NCBI RefSeq assembly: GCF_024509055.1
Contig: NZ_JANINM010000006.1
Coordinates: forward strand, 1 to 64,000
Reading direction: 5' to 3'
Source of the DNA: Mesorhizobium sp.
GTDB lineage: Bacteria > Pseudomonadota > Alphaproteobacteria > Rhizobiales > Rhizobiaceae
DNA length: 64,000 nucleotides
How positions within the stretch are numbered: position 1 is the first letter of the stretch; every line of letters begins with the position of its first letter. The notes below the pieces were generated by a model that was not told the DNA's origin, did not search any database, and saw only the letters and a list, made by a program, of their open reading frames with translations. The translations under genes and the position numbers were made by a program. Of this stretch, positions 26,174-41,276 are shown piece by piece.

Positions 26174-26287
26174 ATGCATGTCGCCCAAAAGTGCGCAGCG
26201 GTTTTGGGACAACGACATGCATCAAAACAAATGCATGTCGCCCAAAAGTGCGCAGCGGTTTTGGGACAACGACATGCATCAAAACAA
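26174..26287. repeat. Perfect tandem duplication of a 57-bp palindromic unit
   Basis: atgcatgtcgcccaaaagtgcgcagcggttttgggacaacgacatgcatcaaaacaa twice head-to-tail. Confidence 0.97.
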
Positions 26288-26292
26288 AGACT

Positions 26293-26334
26293 TAAAGCGC
26301 GTCGCGTGAATTCGTTCAAACGCGACGCGCTTTA
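26293..26334. repeat. 15-bp-arm inverted repeat (Mesorhizobium-like intergenic element)
   Basis: TAAAGCGCGTCGCGT gaattcgttcaa ACGCGACGCGCTTTA. Confidence 0.9.
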
Positions 26335-26354
26335 GGCCGGCAAACGCCGGGCAC

Positions 26355-26387
26355 AAAAAAAGCCGGGCACGCGGCCCGGCTTTTTCG
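26355..26387 (-). terminator. Terminator hairpin between convergent genes
   Basis: aaaaaaAGCCGGGcacgcggCCCGGCTttttcg; serves the omp gene, possibly bidirectional. Confidence 0.8.
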
Positions 26388-26405
26388 TGTCGTGGCTTGG
26401 ACGAC

Positions 26406-32644: not shown

Positions 32645-32775
32645 CAGCAACGGCCGGCCCCGGTCAAGCCGCGCCTCGGATCGACAATTAACCCGCCGAC
32701 GTTCGGACACGCACACGCCAGACCGTGAGGCCGATGCACGATTCGCATCTGCCGCGGATCGAATCTGAATTGACA

Positions 32776-32810
32776 AGATATCGATTTCTAATAGTCTGAA
32801 ATCGATATCT
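32776..32810. promoter_or_regulatory. 13-bp-arm inverted repeat; candidate pair of LacI-type operators
   Basis: AGATATCGATTTC taatagtct GAAATCGATATCT; preceded by TTGACA (32770-32775). Confidence 0.65.
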
Positions 32811-32823
32811 GAGCGAGGTTGGC

Positions 32824-33696
32824 GTGAAAAACACGGTTTCCCAGGATATTCCCGAGCGGCCATTCCTTTCCGGCAGGCCGAGGGCTCTCGGGCGGGGCAA
32901 GCGCGCCGCCGTCACCGCCATGGTGGTCGCGCTGCTGTTCGTTCTGGCGCTGCGGGTCGTCGCCAGCGGGGCGATCAACTGGCAGATTACTTTCGGCTTC
33001 TTCTTCCATTCGGCCATCCTCGACGGCCTTGTCATGACGCTAGAACTGACGGCGCTGTCGATGATCGTCGGCGTGCTCCTGGGCATAGCGCTCGCCGTCA
33101 TGGCGATCTCGCGCTATCCGGCCGTGTCGGCGGCGTCCGCCCTCTATGTCTGGGTGTTCCGCGGCACGCCGCTCCTCGTCCAGCTGATCTTCTGGTTCAA
33201 CATCGCGCTCGTCTTCCCGGTGGTGGGGATCGGCCCGTGGCAGGTGCCCATCAACAGCCTGGTGACGCCCTTCGCGGCTGCTTTGCTCGGGCTTGGCCTC
33301 AACGAAGCCGCCTACATGGCCGAGATCGTGCGCGCCGGTATCAAGTCGGTTGACAGCGGGCAGAGCGAGGCGGCCGTCAGCGTCGGCCTCAACCGTCGCC
33401 AGGTGATGAACAGCGTGATCCTGCCGCAGGCACTCAAGGTCATCATCCCGCCGACCGCCAACCAGACGATCGGCATGCTGAAGAACACCTCGCTGGTCTC
33501 GGTCATCGGCGCGCAGGAGCTCCTGACCAAGACGGAAGACATCTACGCTCGAAATTTCCAGGTGATCGAGCTGCTGATCGTGGCCTCGCTCTGGTACCTC
33601 GTGCTGACCACCGTCGCGTCCGCCGTGCAGTTCTGGCTGGAACGCCGGTTCGGGGATAGCCGCGCGGTCGAAGTCATCGCCGGTGTCCAGCCATGA
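32824..33696 (+). CDS. Amino-acid-type ABC transporter permease
   Basis: HisM/GlnP-like: [22 protein letters not shown]...[28 protein letters not shown]. Confidence 0.93.
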
Positions 33697-33740
33697 CCGT
33701 CGTTCCGTTGTCCGTGCGCCCGGCGGAAAGGGAGACCGCG

Positions 33741-34502
33741 ATGCAACCGACGCTCAGCGCGCGTCACATCGGCAAGGCGTTCGGGGCGCATGTCGTGCTT
33801 ACCGACGTCTCGCTCGACGTGGACCGTGGCGAGGTCGTCTGCATCATCGGGCCGTCGGGGTCAGGCAAGAGCACTTTCCTGCGCTGCATCAACTTCCTCG
33901 AAGTACCCGATGCCGGCGGCGTCTGGGTCGAGGGCGAGCGCGTCGGCTGCCAGGAGCTGGATGGCGTTCTCTGGGAGGTTCCTTCAGCCGTCCTTGCCCG
34001 GCAGCGCGCCGCCATGGGCATGGTGTTCCAGCGCTTCAATCTCTTCGGCCACCTGACGGCAGTCGACAATGTCGCCCTGGCGCTGAGGCTGGTGAAGCGC
34101 ATGCCCCGGCAGCAGGCGCGTGAACGGGCGCTCTCGGTGCTTGCCTCGGTTGGCATGGATCGCTTCGCAGGCCATCGCCCGTCGCAGCTTTCCGGCGGTC
34201 AGCAGCAGCGCGTCGCGATTGCCCGGGCGGTGGCCATGGATCCGAAGGTGCTGCTGTTCGACGAGCCGACTTCGGCGCTCGACCCGGAGCTTGTGCACGA
34301 GGTGCTGTCGGTGATGGGGAGCCTGGCGGGGCAGGGCATGACGATGGTCGTGGTCACCCATGAGATCGGCTTCGCGCGTGAGGTCAGCAACCGCACCGTC
34401 TTCATGGACGGCGGCAGCATCGTGGAGCAGGGCCAGTCGGCGCAGGTTCTCGGCCAGCCGTCCGAGCCGCGCACCAAGGCATTCCTGTCGAAGATCAAAT
34501 GA
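33741..34502 (+). CDS. Amino-acid-type ABC transporter ATP-binding protein
   Basis: Walker [10 protein letters not shown], signature [14 protein letters not shown], Walker [15 protein letters not shown]. Confidence 0.95.
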
Positions 34503-34539
34503 GGAGCAGCCTGCACCGCAGGCAAGCAGAGTGAGCGGA

Positions 34540-35679
34540 ATGAAAGCCAGGAAGATTGCCGTCGTTGGTGTCGGCGCGATGGGAAGCATGGCGCTGTGGC
34601 AATTGGCCAGGCGAGGGCACAACGTTGTCGGCTTCGACCGCATGGGCGTGCCACATGACACCAGCGCGCACGGGGCGGAGTCCCGCATCTTCCGTCTCGC
34701 CTACCGTGAGGGCAAGGAGTACATCCCGCTCCTCAAGCGCTCGCTCGAGCTGTGGCGGGAATTGCAGTCGACTTCGGATCGCAAGTTCCATTTTCCGATC
34801 GGCTGCCTCTACATCGGCGAACGCGGCGCCGATTGGCTCGATGGAACCATCGATGGCGCGCGCGAGCATGACGTGCGCCATGAGGTGCTCGACGAGCACG
34901 AGCTTCGCCGGCGCTTTCCCCAGCACAGACTCGACGGCGGCGAGTTCGCCCTGCTCGACACCGACGGCGCCCTGCTGCGGCCCGAACTGGGCGTAAGGGC
35001 AGCCGTTAGAGCCGCACAGGCCGCGGGGGCTACCTTGCACCAGGGCCGGGCGGTCGAGCGCGTCGTGCCCGAGGCGGACGGCGTGGCGATCACCGTCGCC
35101 GGCAACACCGAGCGTTTCGATGCAGCGGTCGTCACATGCGGCGCCTGGGGCACGCGGCCGATCGAAGGTGCTTCGCCGCAATTCATCGCCCGGCGTCTCG
35201 TCGGCACCTGGTTCGGGGTCGACGATGTCGCGGCCTATCTGCCGGAGCGCTTTCCGGTGTGTATCCGGCGCACTTCAGAAATCGATTACTCGGGCTTCCC
35301 GTCGATGGATGGCTGGACGATCAAGATTATGCCGCCCGTCAATTTCCTGAGCAACATCGATCCTTCCCGCGTCGACCGCACGGTCTCCTACGAAGACACC
35401 GCCATCATGCGCCGCGTGGCGCGCACGCTGCTCGAAGGGGTCGATCCGGAGCCAGTGCGCTCCGGCGTCTATCTCGACGGCTTCACCACCGACAACCACC
35501 CGATCATCGACCACCATCCCGCCAGCGAGCGGATCGTCATCGCCGCCGGCTTCTCCGGCCATGGCTACAAGATGGCGCCGGCGGTCGGCGTCGCAGTCGC
35601 CGATCTCATCGACAGCGGAGGGGACAATTACGTCCGCCACCATTTCTCGGCCCATCGGCCGACCCTGCAGGTGGCTTGA
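34540..35679 (+). CDS. FAD-dependent oxidase, N-methyltryptophan/sarcosine oxidase-like
   Basis: KIAVVGVGAMGSMALWQLARRGHNVVGFD...SAHGAESRIFRLAYRE...AAGFSGHGYKMAPAVG; start re-assigned to ATG 34540. Confidence 0.9.
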   Translation: MKARKIAVVGVGAMGSMALWQLARRGHNVVGFDRMGVPHDTSAHGAESRIFRLAYREGKEYIPLLKRSLELWRELQSTSDRKFHFPIGCLYIGERGADWLDGTIDGAREHDVRHEVLDEHELRRRFPQHRLDGGEFALLDTDGALLRPELGVRAAVRAAQAAGATLHQGRAVERVVPEADGVAITVAGNTERFDAAVVTCGAWGTRPIEGASPQFIARRLVGTWFGVDDVAAYLPERFPVCIRRTSEIDYSGFPSMDGWTIKIMPPVNFLSNIDPSRVDRTVSYEDTAIMRRVARTLLEGVDPEPVRSGVYLDGFTTDNHPIIDHHPASERIVIAAGFSGHGYKMAPAVGVAVADLIDSGGDNYVRHHFSAHRPTLQVA

Positions 35680-35747
35680 GCAGTTCAAAACCGGCCGTCG
35701 GGCTGGGGCAACCGACCGCGTCAAGCGGCAAACAGAGGAGAACGGCA

Positions 35748-36668
35748 ATGAGCATTCTTTCCACCGTCGCACGGGCGGTAGCCCTCGCATCAGCGCTCGC
35801 GGGCGGCACCTTGGCGGCGTGCGCCGCTGATCTGAAGATCGGACCGAATGGCACTCCGCTGACGGTCGATACCGCGGCCGACCTGGCCGCCAAGGTCCCG
35901 GACGCCTTCAAAGGCGGCACGCTCAAGATCGCGACCGATCCCAGTTCGCCGCCTTACACCTACTACCAGGCCGATGGCCAGACGCTGATCGGCTCCGACA
36001 TCGATCTCGGCAACGCCGTCGCGGCCAAGCTCGGCCTCAAGGCAGAATGGTCGGCCGTGAAGTTCCCCGGCATCATCGCGGCGATCGAGGCCAAGCGCTT
36101 CGACACTGCGCTCACCGGCATGGGCGACACGCCGGCGCGCGAGCAGAAGCTGGACTTCGTCGACTATTCCACGGACGGCAACGCCATCGTCGTGCTGAAG
36201 GGCAACCCGCTGGCGATCAAGACCATAGCCGACCTGTGCGGCAGGCATGTCGCGGTGCTGCAGGGCTCGGTCATGCAGGGGCTCGTCGAGAAGCAGGACG
36301 GCAAGTGCGCCGACAAGAAGATCGACATCCAGGTCTTTCAGGACATCAACCAGGCGCTGCTTCAGGTCCGCACCAAGCGCGCCGACGCGACCATGTACCA
36401 GTATGGCGTCGCGGCCTATGTGATCCAGACGTCGCCTGACGCCGCGGGCCTCGAAGTGCTCGCCTTCGAGCAGTACGGCACCGGCTACAACGCCATGCCT
36501 TTCCGCAAGTCCGACAGCGGCCTGCGCGACGCGGTGCAGGCGGCGCTGAGCGCGATGAAGGCCGACGGCAGCTACGAGAAGATCCTCACCGCATGGGGCA
36601 TGCAGGCCAATGGCCTCGAAAAGATCACCGTCAATGACGGGCTGCGCTTCAACCAGCCGAGCAATTGA
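35748..36668 (+). CDS. ABC transporter amino-acid-type substrate-binding protein
   Basis: Signal peptide; GGTLKIATDPSSPPYTYY...GSDIDLGNAVAAKLG. Confidence 0.93.
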   Translation: MSILSTVARAVALASALAGGTLAACAADLKIGPNGTPLTVDTAADLAAKVPDAFKGGTLKIATDPSSPPYTYYQADGQTLIGSDIDLGNAVAAKLGLKAEWSAVKFPGIIAAIEAKRFDTALTGMGDTPAREQKLDFVDYSTDGNAIVVLKGNPLAIKTIADLCGRHVAVLQGSVMQGLVEKQDGKCADKKIDIQVFQDINQALLQVRTKRADATMYQYGVAAYVIQTSPDAAGLEVLAFEQYGTGYNAMPFRKSDSGLRDAVQAALSAMKADGSYEKILTAWGMQANGLEKITVNDGLRFNQPSN

Positions 36669-36701
36669 AGGCTCGCCGAAATACCGCAAGGAGAAATGAA
36701 A

Positions 36702-37463
36702 ATGGCAGTTCGAATTCTGTATTGTGGGGACACCCAGGCCGAAACGCTGATCACGGCGAAAGGCATGGATACGTTCATCCACAATTACTACCGGGATTCG
36801 GCGCGCGTGCTGCGGGAGGCGTTGAGCCCGCGGCCCGGCATCGAACTCACCCACATGCCGGCCGACAAGATACGCGCTGAGTTTCCGATGACGCCGGAGC
36901 AGTTCGCGCAGTGGGATGTCATCATCCTCAGCGATGTCGGCTACAACAACTTCGCGCTCTTGCCGGGCAACCGCGAACGCCTGGTGCCGATGGGGCCGGA
37001 CCGCATCGGCAATTTCCGCAAATGGGTCGAGGGCGGCGGCGGCCTCATCATGGCCGGCGGCTACACCACTTTCTCCGGCATCGAGGGCAAGGGCATCTGG
37101 GGCGGCACGCCGATCGAGGCGGTGCTGCCCGTCACGATCATGCGCGGTATCGACGATCGTATCGAGGTTCCGGACGGCGCCACCCTGGATGTGGCGGTGG
37201 CCGATCATCCGATTCTGAAGGGCGTCGCGTTCGACAAGGATCGCATCATCCTCGGCTACAATCAGGTGACCGCGAAGTCCGACGCCAAGGTGCTGATGAA
37301 AGTGCGCGGTGACGTGTTCATGGCGGTGACCGAAGTCGGCAAAGGACGTTCGATTGCCTATACGACCGACCCTGTATATCACTGGTGCGGTAATCTTCAT
37401 GAGTGGGAAGCTTATGGCCTGATGTGGGAACGCATGGCCAAGTGGGCGGCACGCGAAATCTAG
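36702..37463 (+). CDS. Glutamine-amidotransferase-like protein (PF07090/GATase1-like)
   Basis: VRILYCGDTQAETLITAKGMDTF...WDVIILSDVGYNNF...GGGGLIMAGGYTTFSG. Confidence 0.8.
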   Translation: MAVRILYCGDTQAETLITAKGMDTFIHNYYRDSARVLREALSPRPGIELTHMPADKIRAEFPMTPEQFAQWDVIILSDVGYNNFALLPGNRERLVPMGPDRIGNFRKWVEGGGGLIMAGGYTTFSGIEGKGIWGGTPIEAVLPVTIMRGIDDRIEVPDGATLDVAVADHPILKGVAFDKDRIILGYNQVTAKSDAKVLMKVRGDVFMAVTEVGKGRSIAYTTDPVYHWCGNLHEWEAYGLMWERMAKWAAREI

Positions 37464-37571
37464 GATTTCGACTTGTCAGGGGAAGCGAGCTGCGACGATT
37501 TTCGGTTTTGTTTGAAATCCCGTAGCAACGACTGCTCAGGCTTCGCTGCCGTGAATGTTTTATAGTTACAA

Positions 37572-37604
37572 GGACCGGCCGACCCTTTTGGAGTCGGCCG
37601 GTCC
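37572..37604. promoter_or_regulatory. Perfect 12-bp-arm hairpin upstream of lacI-family gene
   Basis: GGACCGGCCGAC ccttttgga GTCGGCCGGTCC. Confidence 0.6.
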
Positions 37605-37632
37605 CCAACGATCATCGCTGTCGGGAATCGAT

Positions 37633-38649
37633 TTGACTGCCACCATCTACGATGTCGCCCGTCACGCCCAAGTCTCGGCCGCCACGGTGTCGCGCGTGGT
37701 CAATGGCCTCAAGGTTCGCGAGGATCTGGCCGAACGCGTGAAAGCCTCTGTGTCGGAGCTCGGTTACCGGCCGAGCCGCACGGCCCAGCGGATGCGCACC
37801 TCGGCCTCGCATCTGTGGGCACTGATCGTGCCCGATTTCGAGAACACCTTCTTCACGCGCCTTGCGCGCGGCCTCGAGCAGGTTTGCCGACCGAACGACA
37901 CTTGCGTCTTCATAGGCAGTTCGGATGACGATCCAGAGAAGGAGGGCCACTATCTCGATGTCGCCCTGGCGGAGCGAGTTGGCGGCGTGGTGATCGCGCC
38001 GTCCTCGGACGCGACCGACCTGACGAAGGTCGCCGAGGCCGGGATTCCCGTGGTCGTCGTGGACAGGGCCCTGCCGGGCAACGCCTATGACACCATCCTG
38101 ACCAACAACCTCTCGGGCGGCGCGCTCGCTGCCGGGTATCTTGACGGCGCCGGCTTTCGCAAGGCGGTTTGCATCGCCGGCCCGCTGAATCCCACCAGCG
38201 ACGCGCGCCTGCAAGGCTTCGTCGAGGCGGCGAAAGGCAAGAGCGGCCTCGACATCGTTCGCATCGAGCATGCCAACAATCGGGTGGATGGCGGCTATCT
38301 CGCCATGCGGCGCATTCTGGAGGAACGGACGGCCTTCGATTGCCTGTTCGTCACCAACAACCTCATGGCCGTCGGTTCGATCAAGGCGCTGGAGGATGTT
38401 GCGCCCGGCCGCAAGGACGACATCGGCATCGTCGGCTTTGATCTCAAGGAAATTCCGCTTCTCACCGGTAAGCACATCGCCTCGATCGACCAGGATCCCC
38501 ACGAAATAGGCCGTATCGCCGGCGAGCGCATCCTGGAGCAGAGGCAGGGCGGATCAGGCCCAGGTTGCTGGATCGAGCTGTCGCCTGCGCTGGCCACGTT
38601 CGACGGCAATCCAGCTTTGGCTTTGTCCCGTCGTCCGTCCAGCCGATGA
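37633..38649 (+). CDS. LacI family transcriptional regulator
   Basis: TATIYDVARHAQVSAATVSRVVNGL; start TTG 37633, or ATG 37555 if the N-terminal extension is real. Confidence 0.9.
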   Translation: MTATIYDVARHAQVSAATVSRVVNGLKVREDLAERVKASVSELGYRPSRTAQRMRTSASHLWALIVPDFENTFFTRLARGLEQVCRPNDTCVFIGSSDDDPEKEGHYLDVALAERVGGVVIAPSSDATDLTKVAEAGIPVVVVDRALPGNAYDTILTNNLSGGALAAGYLDGAGFRKAVCIAGPLNPTSDARLQGFVEAAKGKSGLDIVRIEHANNRVDGGYLAMRRILEERTAFDCLFVTNNLMAVGSIKALEDVAPGRKDDIGIVGFDLKEIPLLTGKHIASIDQDPHEIGRIAGERILEQRQGGSGPGCWIELSPALATFDGNPALALSRRPSSR

Positions 38650-38689
38650 GCATGCGGTGACGATTGACCGAGCCGCCGCGATGACATTG

Positions 38690-38765
38690 GCTTGCCCAAT
38701 GGGAGGGTTTCCACGAAGCCGCCCTTGTGGGCTGATGATTCCTGCCAGGCGTTCGTTCGCGCGGA
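38690..38765 (+). ncRNA. Fluoride-riboswitch-like element, orphan/probably degenerate
   Basis: ccaatgggagggtttccacgaagccgcccttgtgggctgatgattcctgccaggcg shares ccgcccttrtgggctgatgaytcctgccaggcg with the 39941 element. Confidence 0.5.
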
Positions 38766-38910
38766 ACCATCGCGGCGCACGCGCTCGAGGCCGCCACCGC
38801 CAGGCAGCGAACTCGATCCCGCTATGCGAAAGGGCAGCCTTCCGTCGGCATGAAGGGGACGCGCAGGGACGACTAAATCGTCATTTGCATTCCTGGAATG
38901 GCGCCCAGGT

Positions 38911-39378
38911 TCAGAGCGCGGGCGTGAGGCCGTGCCGCTGCATGATCTCCATCATCTTCGCGCGATCGGGTGGGCCGCCCGCGGCCGCGTTGAGAACGGC
39001 AAAGGCGTCCCGGAAATAGTCCGGCCCGATCGCCGCTGGCGTCGCCACGCAGAGCACCTTGGCAGCGTGGATGCCGTTGTTGTCGAAACGATGCACCGCA
39101 CCGCGCGGAATGCACAGCGCCTGTCCAGGGCCGACGTCGTGCGGGTGGCCGTCGACGGTCCAGGTCAGCGTTCCCTCAACCCCGTAGATGGTTTCCTCGA
39201 AGTGGTCGTGGCTGTGTGCCGGGGCGAGCAACCGCTTCGAGCCGGGCACCGTTACCTCGAAAGCCGCGATGCTGCCGCCGGACTGCTCGCCGGTGAGCAG
39301 GAAGTGCACGGTGACGCCGTCATGGCTGAAAGTTTCCTCCGCCGGATTGACACGGATCTGGCTGGCTTTCCCTAGCAT
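38911..39378 (-). CDS. Cupin domain protein
   Basis: SHDHFEETIYGVEGTLTWTVDG...GQALCIPRGAVHRFDN. Confidence 0.88.
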   Translation of the reverse strand: MLGKASQIRVNPAEETFSHDGVTVHFLLTGEQSGGSIAAFEVTVPGSKRLLAPAHSHDHFEETIYGVEGTLTWTVDGHPHDVGPGQALCIPRGAVHRFDNNGIHAAKVLCVATPAAIGPDYFRDAFAVLNAAAGGPPDRAKMMEIMQRHGLTPAL

Positions 39379-39441: not shown

Positions 39442-39897
39442 ATGCCTCAGTTCTCGGACGACCCGCCAAGGAAGCCTCCACTGATCGGCGCGCTGCTTCG
39501 CGTGCCAGCCATGGCCATTCACCGCAAGCTCATCCGGGAGTTGCGCGCGTCGGGTTTCGAGGACCTGAGCCCGCCGCATATGGCGGTGATCCAGTATCCC
39601 GGTCCCGACGGCATGCGGCCAAGCGTGCTTGCAGAGCGCGCCGCCATGAGCAAGCAGGCCATGAACCAGTTGCTCAAGACGCTGGAGGGGATGGGCTACA
39701 TCAGCCGAGGCGCTTCGCCTGAGGACGGGGGTGGGACGGTCGTTCATTTCACCGACCGCGGCCGCGCCGCTTACGACAAGATGGCTGAAATCCTCTTGGA
39801 TATCGAGCGGGAATGGACCGAGGAACTGGGCGAAAGGCGCTTCCACGAGCTCAAGGCTCTGCTCGGCGACCTCTGGGATACGCCCTTGATCCGCTGA
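39442..39897 (+). CDS. MarR family transcriptional regulator
   Basis: LAERAAMSKQAMNQLLKTLEGMGYISRGASPEDGG. Confidence 0.92.
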   Translation: MPQFSDDPPRKPPLIGALLRVPAMAIHRKLIRELRASGFEDLSPPHMAVIQYPGPDGMRPSVLAERAAMSKQAMNQLLKTLEGMGYISRGASPEDGGGTVVHFTDRGRAAYDKMAEILLDIEREWTEELGERRFHELKALLGDLWDTPLIR

Positions 39898-39940
39898 CCC
39901 ACGGATTGACCGCGCGGCGGCGACCGCCTAGCTTCGCCAA

Positions 39941-40030
39941 AAAATGGGGATGGGGTTCCCCCAAAACCGCCCTTATGGGCTGATGACTCCTGCCAGGCGT
40001 GCTTGCGCGCGGCAGGATTTGTTTTTGCCG
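39941..40030 (+). ncRNA. Fluoride (crcB) riboswitch
   Basis: ggggatggggttcccccaaaaccgcccttatgggctgatgactcctgccagg; terminator-like CCTGCC...GGCAGGatttgttttt follows; directly upstream of crcB. Confidence 0.88.
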
Positions 40031-40097: not shown

Positions 40098-40490
40098 ATG
40101 ACCCTTGCGGCTTGCGCCCTGGTCCTGCTCGGCGGTTTCTTCGGCGGCATATCCCGCTTCTTCCTGTCCGGCCTCGTCGGCCGCAATGTCGGCGAGACCT
40201 TTCCGTGGGGCACGCTGATCGTCAACGTCTCCGGCGCGCTGGCCATCGGCGCCTTCGCCGGCGCCGCCCGCGCGGTCGGCGGCGTCTTCGCCAGCGATCT
40301 GGTGCGCGACCTGATCGTGGTCGGCCTGTTCGGCGGCTACACCACGGTCTCTTCCTTCTGCCTGCAGACGCTCAACCTCGCGCTCGACGGCGAAAGGCGG
40401 CTGGCCGCCTTCAACATTGTCGCCTCGGCGGCGCTCTGCGTGCTGGCCGTCGCGGCCGGCTTCTGGGCCGTCATGCGGATGGCGGGGTAG
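40098..40490 (+). CDS. crcB: Fluoride exporter CrcB/Fluc
   Basis: GGFFGGISRFFLSGLVG...FPWGTLIVNVSGALAIG...GLFGGYTTVSSFCLQTL. Confidence 0.95.
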   Translation: MTLAACALVLLGGFFGGISRFFLSGLVGRNVGETFPWGTLIVNVSGALAIGAFAGAARAVGGVFASDLVRDLIVVGLFGGYTTVSSFCLQTLNLALDGERRLAAFNIVASAALCVLAVAAGFWAVMRMAG

Positions 40491-40496
40491 GGCGCA

Positions 40497-40922
40497 ATGT
40501 CCGGAAATGAAAGGCAGGCATTGCGGCTCTACATGGCGGTCGGCTGCGGTGCCGCGATCGGCTCGCTGGCGCGTTTCCTGTCCGGCTACGTCATCGTCTC
40601 GGGGTTTGGCCTGAACGCGCTCTACGCCACCGCCTTCGTCAATGTCGTCGGCTCGTGGGTGATCATGTTCTTCGCCACGCTGACCCGTCCGGACGGCCGC
40701 CTGATGGTCGGGCCTGCCGGCCGCCAGTTCGTCACCGGAGGCTTCTGCGGCGGCCTCACGACCTTCTCGGCCATGAGCCTCGACACCTTCATTCTGCTTT
40801 TGGAGGGCGACCTCGGGCTTGCCGCGACCTATCTTGTCAGTGTGGTGGTGCTGTCGCTGGCGGCCGCCTGGCTGGGCTATCTCATGGCCGCCAGGCTGAA
40901 CCGCCTGCCGGCCAGCACATGA
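40497..40922 (+). CDS. crcB: Fluoride exporter CrcB/Fluc, second subunit
   Basis: [18 protein letters not shown]...[16 protein letters not shown]...[17 protein letters not shown]. Confidence 0.95.
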
Positions 40923-40937
40923 TCGCGGAGGAAGACC

Positions 40938-41276
40938 ATGGAACTTCCCAGCCAGTGCGTGTTGCTCAGGATATTCTTCGGCGAGGACGACAGGTCTGCC
41001 GACGGCAGGCCGCTGCACGAGGCGATCGTCATGAAGGCGCGTGAGGCCGGCATGGCCGGCGCCACCGTGCTGAGAGGCCCGCTCGGCTTCGGCCGCTCGA
41101 GCGTGCTCCACACCGCCAAGATCCTGCGCCTGTCGCAGGACCTGCCCATCGTCGTCGAGATCGTCGACGCGCCGGAGAAGATCGACGCGCTGATCCCGCA
41201 GCTGAAGGCGCTGACCAACAGCTGCCTGATCACAAGGGAAAAGGTCGAGGTTATCCGCTACGGCGACGGCGACTGA
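40938..41276 (+). CDS. DUF190 domain protein
   Basis: LLRIFFGEDDR...GAGGATVLRGPLGFGRSS-like: GMAGATVLRGPLGFGRSSVLHTAKILRLSQDLPIVVEIVD. Confidence 0.9.
   Translation: MELPSQCVLLRIFFGEDDRSADGRPLHEAIVMKAREAGMAGATVLRGPLGFGRSSVLHTAKILRLSQDLPIVVEIVDAPEKIDALIPQLKALTNSCLITREKVEVIRYGDGD

Follow-up and report, generated by a model that had tools for sequence, protein, structure and literature searches.

The second fluoride riboswitch-like element of the window (the whole stretch of 64,000 nucleotides of Mesorhizobium sp. DNA analysed here), located between a lacI gene and a convergent cupin gene, is in all likelihood the non-functional remains of a crcB leader, with its promoter, its fluoride aptamer and half of its terminator. 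Read in this way, it would be an ordinary molecular fossil, stranded between two unrelated genes after an old rearrangement and mattering little by itself. It provides a case of a riboswitch fossil, i.e., a homologue that scores under the Rfam cut-off and whose past is readable from its neighbours, and it indicates which positions go once selection on a fluoride riboswitch lifts. Literature searches on riboswitch pseudogenes and on fluoride riboswitches of Mesorhizobium yielded no case that seemed relevant by its title and abstract.

Identification and extent of the element

A second fluoride riboswitch-like element had been proposed in the first-pass annotation, and the Rfam covariance model that it suggested was run on both copies. 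The cmscan analysis against RF01734, the fluoride (crcB) riboswitch family, identified a degenerate homologue (Table 1) with a score of 27.5 bits, below the gathering score of 34, and an E-value of 9.9e-5 in 4 kb or 3.9e-5 in the whole 6.7-Mb genome; the element is thus real. Positions 38705-38764 align without gaps over 60 nt with positions 39953-40012 of the true copy (85% identity), which points to real descent rather than chance, and the true copy was recovered with the orphan as DNA query (E = 4.9e-12). The covariance score, the identity and the E-value of the DNA search together place this similarity far beyond chance. The stretch initially reported as shared by the two copies is present, but its extent was too short: the similarity to crcB leaders spans the whole leader (-35 box, aptamer and terminator loop), reaching the promoter on the 5′ side and halting abruptly within the terminator, at position 38764. 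Collinearity with the leaders beyond the aptamer and a matching genomic position in relatives are both present. The element is a homologue by descent of a crcB leader but, on the features examined, fails as a functional RF01734 member except for P3 and the 3′ strand.

Among 147 congeners, no other genome carries the element, which is present in one genome only. The strong matches that cover it across these 147 genomes are crcB leaders, and a dispersed repeat, the refuting case named in the first-pass annotation, was therefore rejected. The plasmid collection gave no match. A scan of named genomes with a leader-sequence pattern hit nine records of Mesorhizobium and a single Hyphomicrobiales MAG, in line with an origin of the window in the Mesorhizobium group.

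The order of genes in the window is lacI-[relic]-cupin-marR-[intact riboswitch]-crcB1-crcB2-DUF190, with 1.25 kb between the relic and the intact copy, and window genes mostly share 70-98% identity with those of congeners. The gene lacI is the last of a permease-ATPase-oxidase-SBP-ThuA-LacI block (32758-38764). As described earlier, lacI lies upstream of the relic on the plus strand and the cupin gene converges on it from downstream; the relic has no gene of its own on its 3′ side, the next plus-strand gene being marR at 39442. The intact riboswitch precedes a fluoride-export operon, crcB1-crcB2-DUF190 (40098..41276). Its promoter, recognised from conserved leader columns, was not called by a consensus sigma-70 scan. 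A third riboswitch is present in the same genome (G000:C385:130002-130078; L041:7003-7079; 42 bits), 23 nt before a gene for a CLC-type channel that is probably a fluoride exporter.

Table 1. Features of the lacI-crcB region of the window.
Feature	Position	Strand	Basis
LacI-family regulator	37555..38649	+	Pfam PF00356/PF13407
Relic crcB promoter	38664..38692	+	Alignment of 29 leaders, sequence
Relic aptamer (orphan)	38692..38751	+	cmscan RF01734
Former terminator: 5′ arm and loop, without 3′ arm GGCAGG and U-tract	38740..38764	+	Alignment, terminator scan, folding
Spacer of ~145 nt without syntenic counterpart	38766..38911	.	Locus comparison
Cupin gene, convergent with lacI	38911..39378	-	Pfam PF07883
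MarR-family regulator	39442..39897	+	Pfam PF12802
Intact crcB promoter: -35 TTGACC 39906-39911, -10 TAGCTT 39929-39934, 17-nt spacer	39906..39934	+	Conserved leader columns
Intact fluoride riboswitch aptamer	39937..39999	+	cmscan RF01734, 61.7 bits, E 1.1e-14
Intact terminator expression platform, TCCTGCC/GGCAGGA then TTTGTTTTT	39988..40026	+	Terminator scan, fold
crcB1	40098-40490	+	Pfam PF02537
crcB2	40497-40922	+	Pfam PF02537
DUF190	40938-41276	+	Pfam PF02641

The crcB locus in related genomes

For the comparison of the locus, 147 genomes of the genus were searched and about 30 loci were inspected. The synteny check proposed at the outset accounts for the position of the relic, with lacI directly before an intact riboswitch and crcB in genomes G007 and G142 (permease-ATPase-oxidase-SBP-ThuA-lacI-[intact riboswitch]-crcB1-crcB2, without cupin-marR). 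A 3′ remnant of lacI precedes the riboswitch in G036. The arrangement cupin-marR-[riboswitch]-crcB1-crcB2-DUF190-ndk is found in G015, G141 and G154, and five genomes (G149, G025, G064, G091 and G008) present uvrC-pgsA-moaE-...-cupin-marR-ndk without crcB. Only the window has both lacI and cupin-marR at the crcB locus.

The block homologous to G142 is unbroken from 32758 to 38764, the last homologous base of the relic, and resumes at 39941 within the intact riboswitch. About 14 nt separate the lacI stop codon from the -35 box, both in the relic and in G007. Because of this continuity and of the matching spacing, the relic can be placed exactly at the position of the lacI-side crcB leader. The window thus shares its lacI block, as far as this leader, with G007 and G142; in these two genomes, however, the leader is intact and precedes crcB, whereas cupin-marR and a second leader lie between them in the window. 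An assembly chimera is unlikely, since the uvrC-side and ndk-side flanks share one contig and match relatives.

A lost fluoride gene had also been suggested. Relatives do have lacI followed by riboswitch-crcB, but crcB was not lost in the window, where cupin-marR separates it from the lacI side and an intact riboswitch of its own precedes it; no crcB remnant lies behind the relic, tblastn searches of positions 38741-38915 with crcB, DUF190 and their neighbours having given nothing convincing.

Conserved and lost features of the relic leader

The crcB leaders of the genus were aligned together with the relic (29 leaders in all), and the 74 positions invariant in 26 intact leaders served as the reference for counting changes; two leaders were left out of the counts, the first for its very strong divergence and the second for its altered promoter. 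The relic carries 20 changes at these 74 positions, compared with 2 in the intact copy of the window and 0-3 in all intact leaders. Together with synteny, this bears out the earlier suggestion of a decayed duplicate. Compared with RF01734 and the leaders of crcB1-crcB2-DUF190 in Mesorhizobium, the relic is homologous over the promoter, the aptamer and the 5′ half of the terminator; unlike them, it has lost the GAUG core and the 8-nt loop, its pseudoknot and terminator are broken, and no gene follows it.

The remaining leaders share TTGAC(C), a 17-nt spacing and a TAG-type -10 box. In the relic, the -35 box TTGACC is intact at 38664-38669 (ATTGACC at 38663-38669) and is followed by a 17-nt spacer, whereas the -10 hexamer reads TTGGCT (38687-38692) in place of the TAG-type hexamers of relatives, i.e., the -10 box is lost. 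Several bases are also deleted 5′ of the aptamer.

An aptamer of the form GGGGATGGGGTTCCCCCGAAACCGCCC..GGGCTGATGACTCCTGCC is common, with few exceptions, to the remaining leaders, and their terminator mostly ends with GCGGCAGGATTTGTTTTT. The aptamer core GGGGATGGGG has become GGGAGGG in the relic according to the leader alignment, in agreement with the initial reading of GAGGG for GAUGG. In both the cmscan and the 29-leader alignments, the P1 loop has 4 nt in the relic versus 8 in the family and AU is missing; the relic is thus devoid of the 8-nt pseudoknot loop that supplies the 5′ strand and of the AU of the fluoride/Mg2+ site. The pseudoknot of Bacillus cereus has 6 bp, from G7-C44 to U12-G39, and C41 in the numbering of that riboswitch (PMC8004769) is replaced by U in the relic. 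The short P1 loop, the missing AU and this substitution prevent the 6-bp pseudoknot (GGGGUU/GACUCC) from coexisting with P1. Other parts were kept: the P3 stem GCCC/GGGC and the 3′ strand UGAUGAyUCCU persist with a single C to U change, and the linchpin A and U, which are essential to the fluoride-locked state (PMC8752731), still flank the 3′ strand of the pseudoknot in the relic sequence. The good preservation of the stretch CCGCCC..GGGCTGATGAyTCCTGCCAGGCG counts against a non-functional relic.

The retention of P3, of most of the pseudoknot 3′ strand and of the linchpin A/U would fit a relic that still binds fluoride, either as a decoy or as a fluoride-sensing 3′ UTR. We consider this highly improbable, given the reduction of the P1 loop from 8 to 4 nt, the loss of the AU of GAUGG, the change of C41 to U, the incompatibility of the pseudoknot with P1 and the lost -10 box; moreover, one weak aptamer would scarcely suffice to buffer the fluoride of a cell.

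The expression platform of the relic is broken. At the breakpoint (38764), GGCAGGATTTGTTTTT gives way to GGAACCATCGCGGCG, and the GGCAGG arm, correctly described at first as lost, is replaced by GGAACC; the 3′ arm and the U-tract of the terminator are missing, and none was called by the terminator scan. The fold z-score of the terminator region is +1.04 in the relic versus -3.57 in the intact copy (0/200 shuffles as stable), and the other fold z-score of the relic is -0.15, no better than shuffles. An inverted repeat of 9 nt, mismatched at one position (GATGATTCC at 38734-38742 and GGAACCATC at 38763-38771), could form a new hairpin and as such counts against a non-functional relic.

The relic might have been reused as the 3′ end of the lacI mRNA, with this hairpin serving, independently of fluoride, to terminate transcription or to stabilise the transcript. 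The position of the relic, directly after lacI and between the convergent lacI and cupin genes, would suit such a role, as would the 8 of 9 pairs formed in the inverted repeat and the inclusion of the hairpin in the minimum-free-energy fold of 38692-38790. The hairpin is, however, not followed by a U-tract and is not called by the terminator scan, whose only call is a weak hairpin of 5 bp at 38868-38882; fold z-scores of -0.15 and +1.0 are no better than shuffles, the same place is occupied by a crcB leader in relatives, and the element is unique to one genome. Such a reuse is therefore very unlikely, and the role as a sponge or 3′-end element put forward in the first-pass annotation finds no backing: the features of the fluoride site and pseudoknot are gone, a U-tract is absent, folding is close to that of shuffled sequences and no second genome carries the element. 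The relic very probably does nothing.

The changes in the relic are not significantly clustered (longest unchanged run, p = 0.15; p = 0.36 up to the breakpoint) and so give no sign of selection on one part of the relic. Up to the breakpoint, 13/64 constrained sites have changed (~20%). The synonymous differences in lacI between the window and G142/G007 amount to 0.44, and the change in the relic would be roughly the neutral decay per lineage expected from this value.

Possible history of the locus

In the lineage of the window, the lacI-proximal leader would have been cut off from crcB, cupin-marR and a second copy of the leader now standing between the two. The crcB operon would have retained the adjacent copy, kept intact under selection, and the lacI-side copy would have lost the 3′ arm of its terminator at the breakpoint, then its purpose, and would subsequently have gathered substitutions and small deletions at a roughly neutral rate.

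Two histories can be proposed for such a relic. In the first, to which we give slightly less than an even chance provided that the element is a relic, the ancestor had lacI-RS′-cupin-marR-RS-crcB (RS and RS′ being the two leader copies); the G007/G142 type would have lost cupin-marR by recombination between the two direct repeats, the G015 type would have arisen by loss of the lacI block, and the window would have kept both, with decay of RS′. The lacI block of the window shares about 85-94% nucleotide identity with that of G142/G007 depending on the gene (92-96% within the G142/G007 pair), compared with 82-91% for core genes (92-93% within the pair). Since this divergence is similar to that of core genes, the block is not a recent arrival, and its recent horizontal acquisition was rejected; the similarity is as predicted by vertical descent in the first history, and the window takes the same place in the trees of crcB and ndk. 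This history, however, leaves the origin of the first RS′ behind lacI unexplained and requires repeated deletions.

In the second, which on the same proviso also falls a little short of being as probable as not, the lineage of the window would have started from lacI-RS-crcB, and recombination at crcB would have brought in cupin-marR-RS as a segment of another lineage, the old leader staying in place. The pS of marR between the window and G015/G141/G154 is 0.54, higher than the 0.48 between those genomes and the strains without crcB, and uvrC shows the opposite, the window being closer to the G015/G141/G154 group (0.27 versus 0.36). The divergence of marR is a weak hint of a foreign cupin-marR; this signal is absent from the pS of cupin, and faster evolution would yield the same signal in marR. 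The lacI-side copy of the leader is redundant under both histories.

The spacer between the relic and the cupin gene has no counterpart in the other cupin-marR loci, because homology there begins at the 3′ end of cupin; an insertion that carried both cupin and its native 3′ flank was rejected on this ground. The spacer holds a 35-nt fragment on the minus strand (~38834-38868), frameshifted and with a 2-nt gap, with a match in one genome (E 5.5e-6). We take it, from the motif ...FTPTEGCVAV..., to resemble the active site of L,D-transpeptidases, which suggests rearrangement debris.

Other riboswitch and repeat matches in the genus

Weak riboswitch matches that no gene follows may be relics instead of new regulators, and should be interpreted with caution. 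The window contains a match to the Brucella sRNA CI27 at 26221-26398 (RF02600, 67 bits), which looks like a dispersed palindromic repeat because parts of it recur as units of about 60 bp elsewhere in relatives. Beside a CI27-like repeat in another genome, a sub-threshold fluoride riboswitch match is present on the minus strand (G111:C6:105230-105290; L132:6231-6291; 23.4 bits, E 0.03), which may be a second relic or due to chance. Thirteen fluoride riboswitch matches, 11 of them over the Rfam cut-off, occur within about 27 kb of a contig from the same genus (G069, C3:19052-45584; L134:7053-16933, L135:822-14084), near TniB and Mu-transposase-C genes. The genes located among these matches include Usp, a dynamin-like GTPase, an AFG1 ATPase, several MutS-domain-V ATPases, BacA, NUDIX and MFS, and the region looks like a mobile fluoride-response island.
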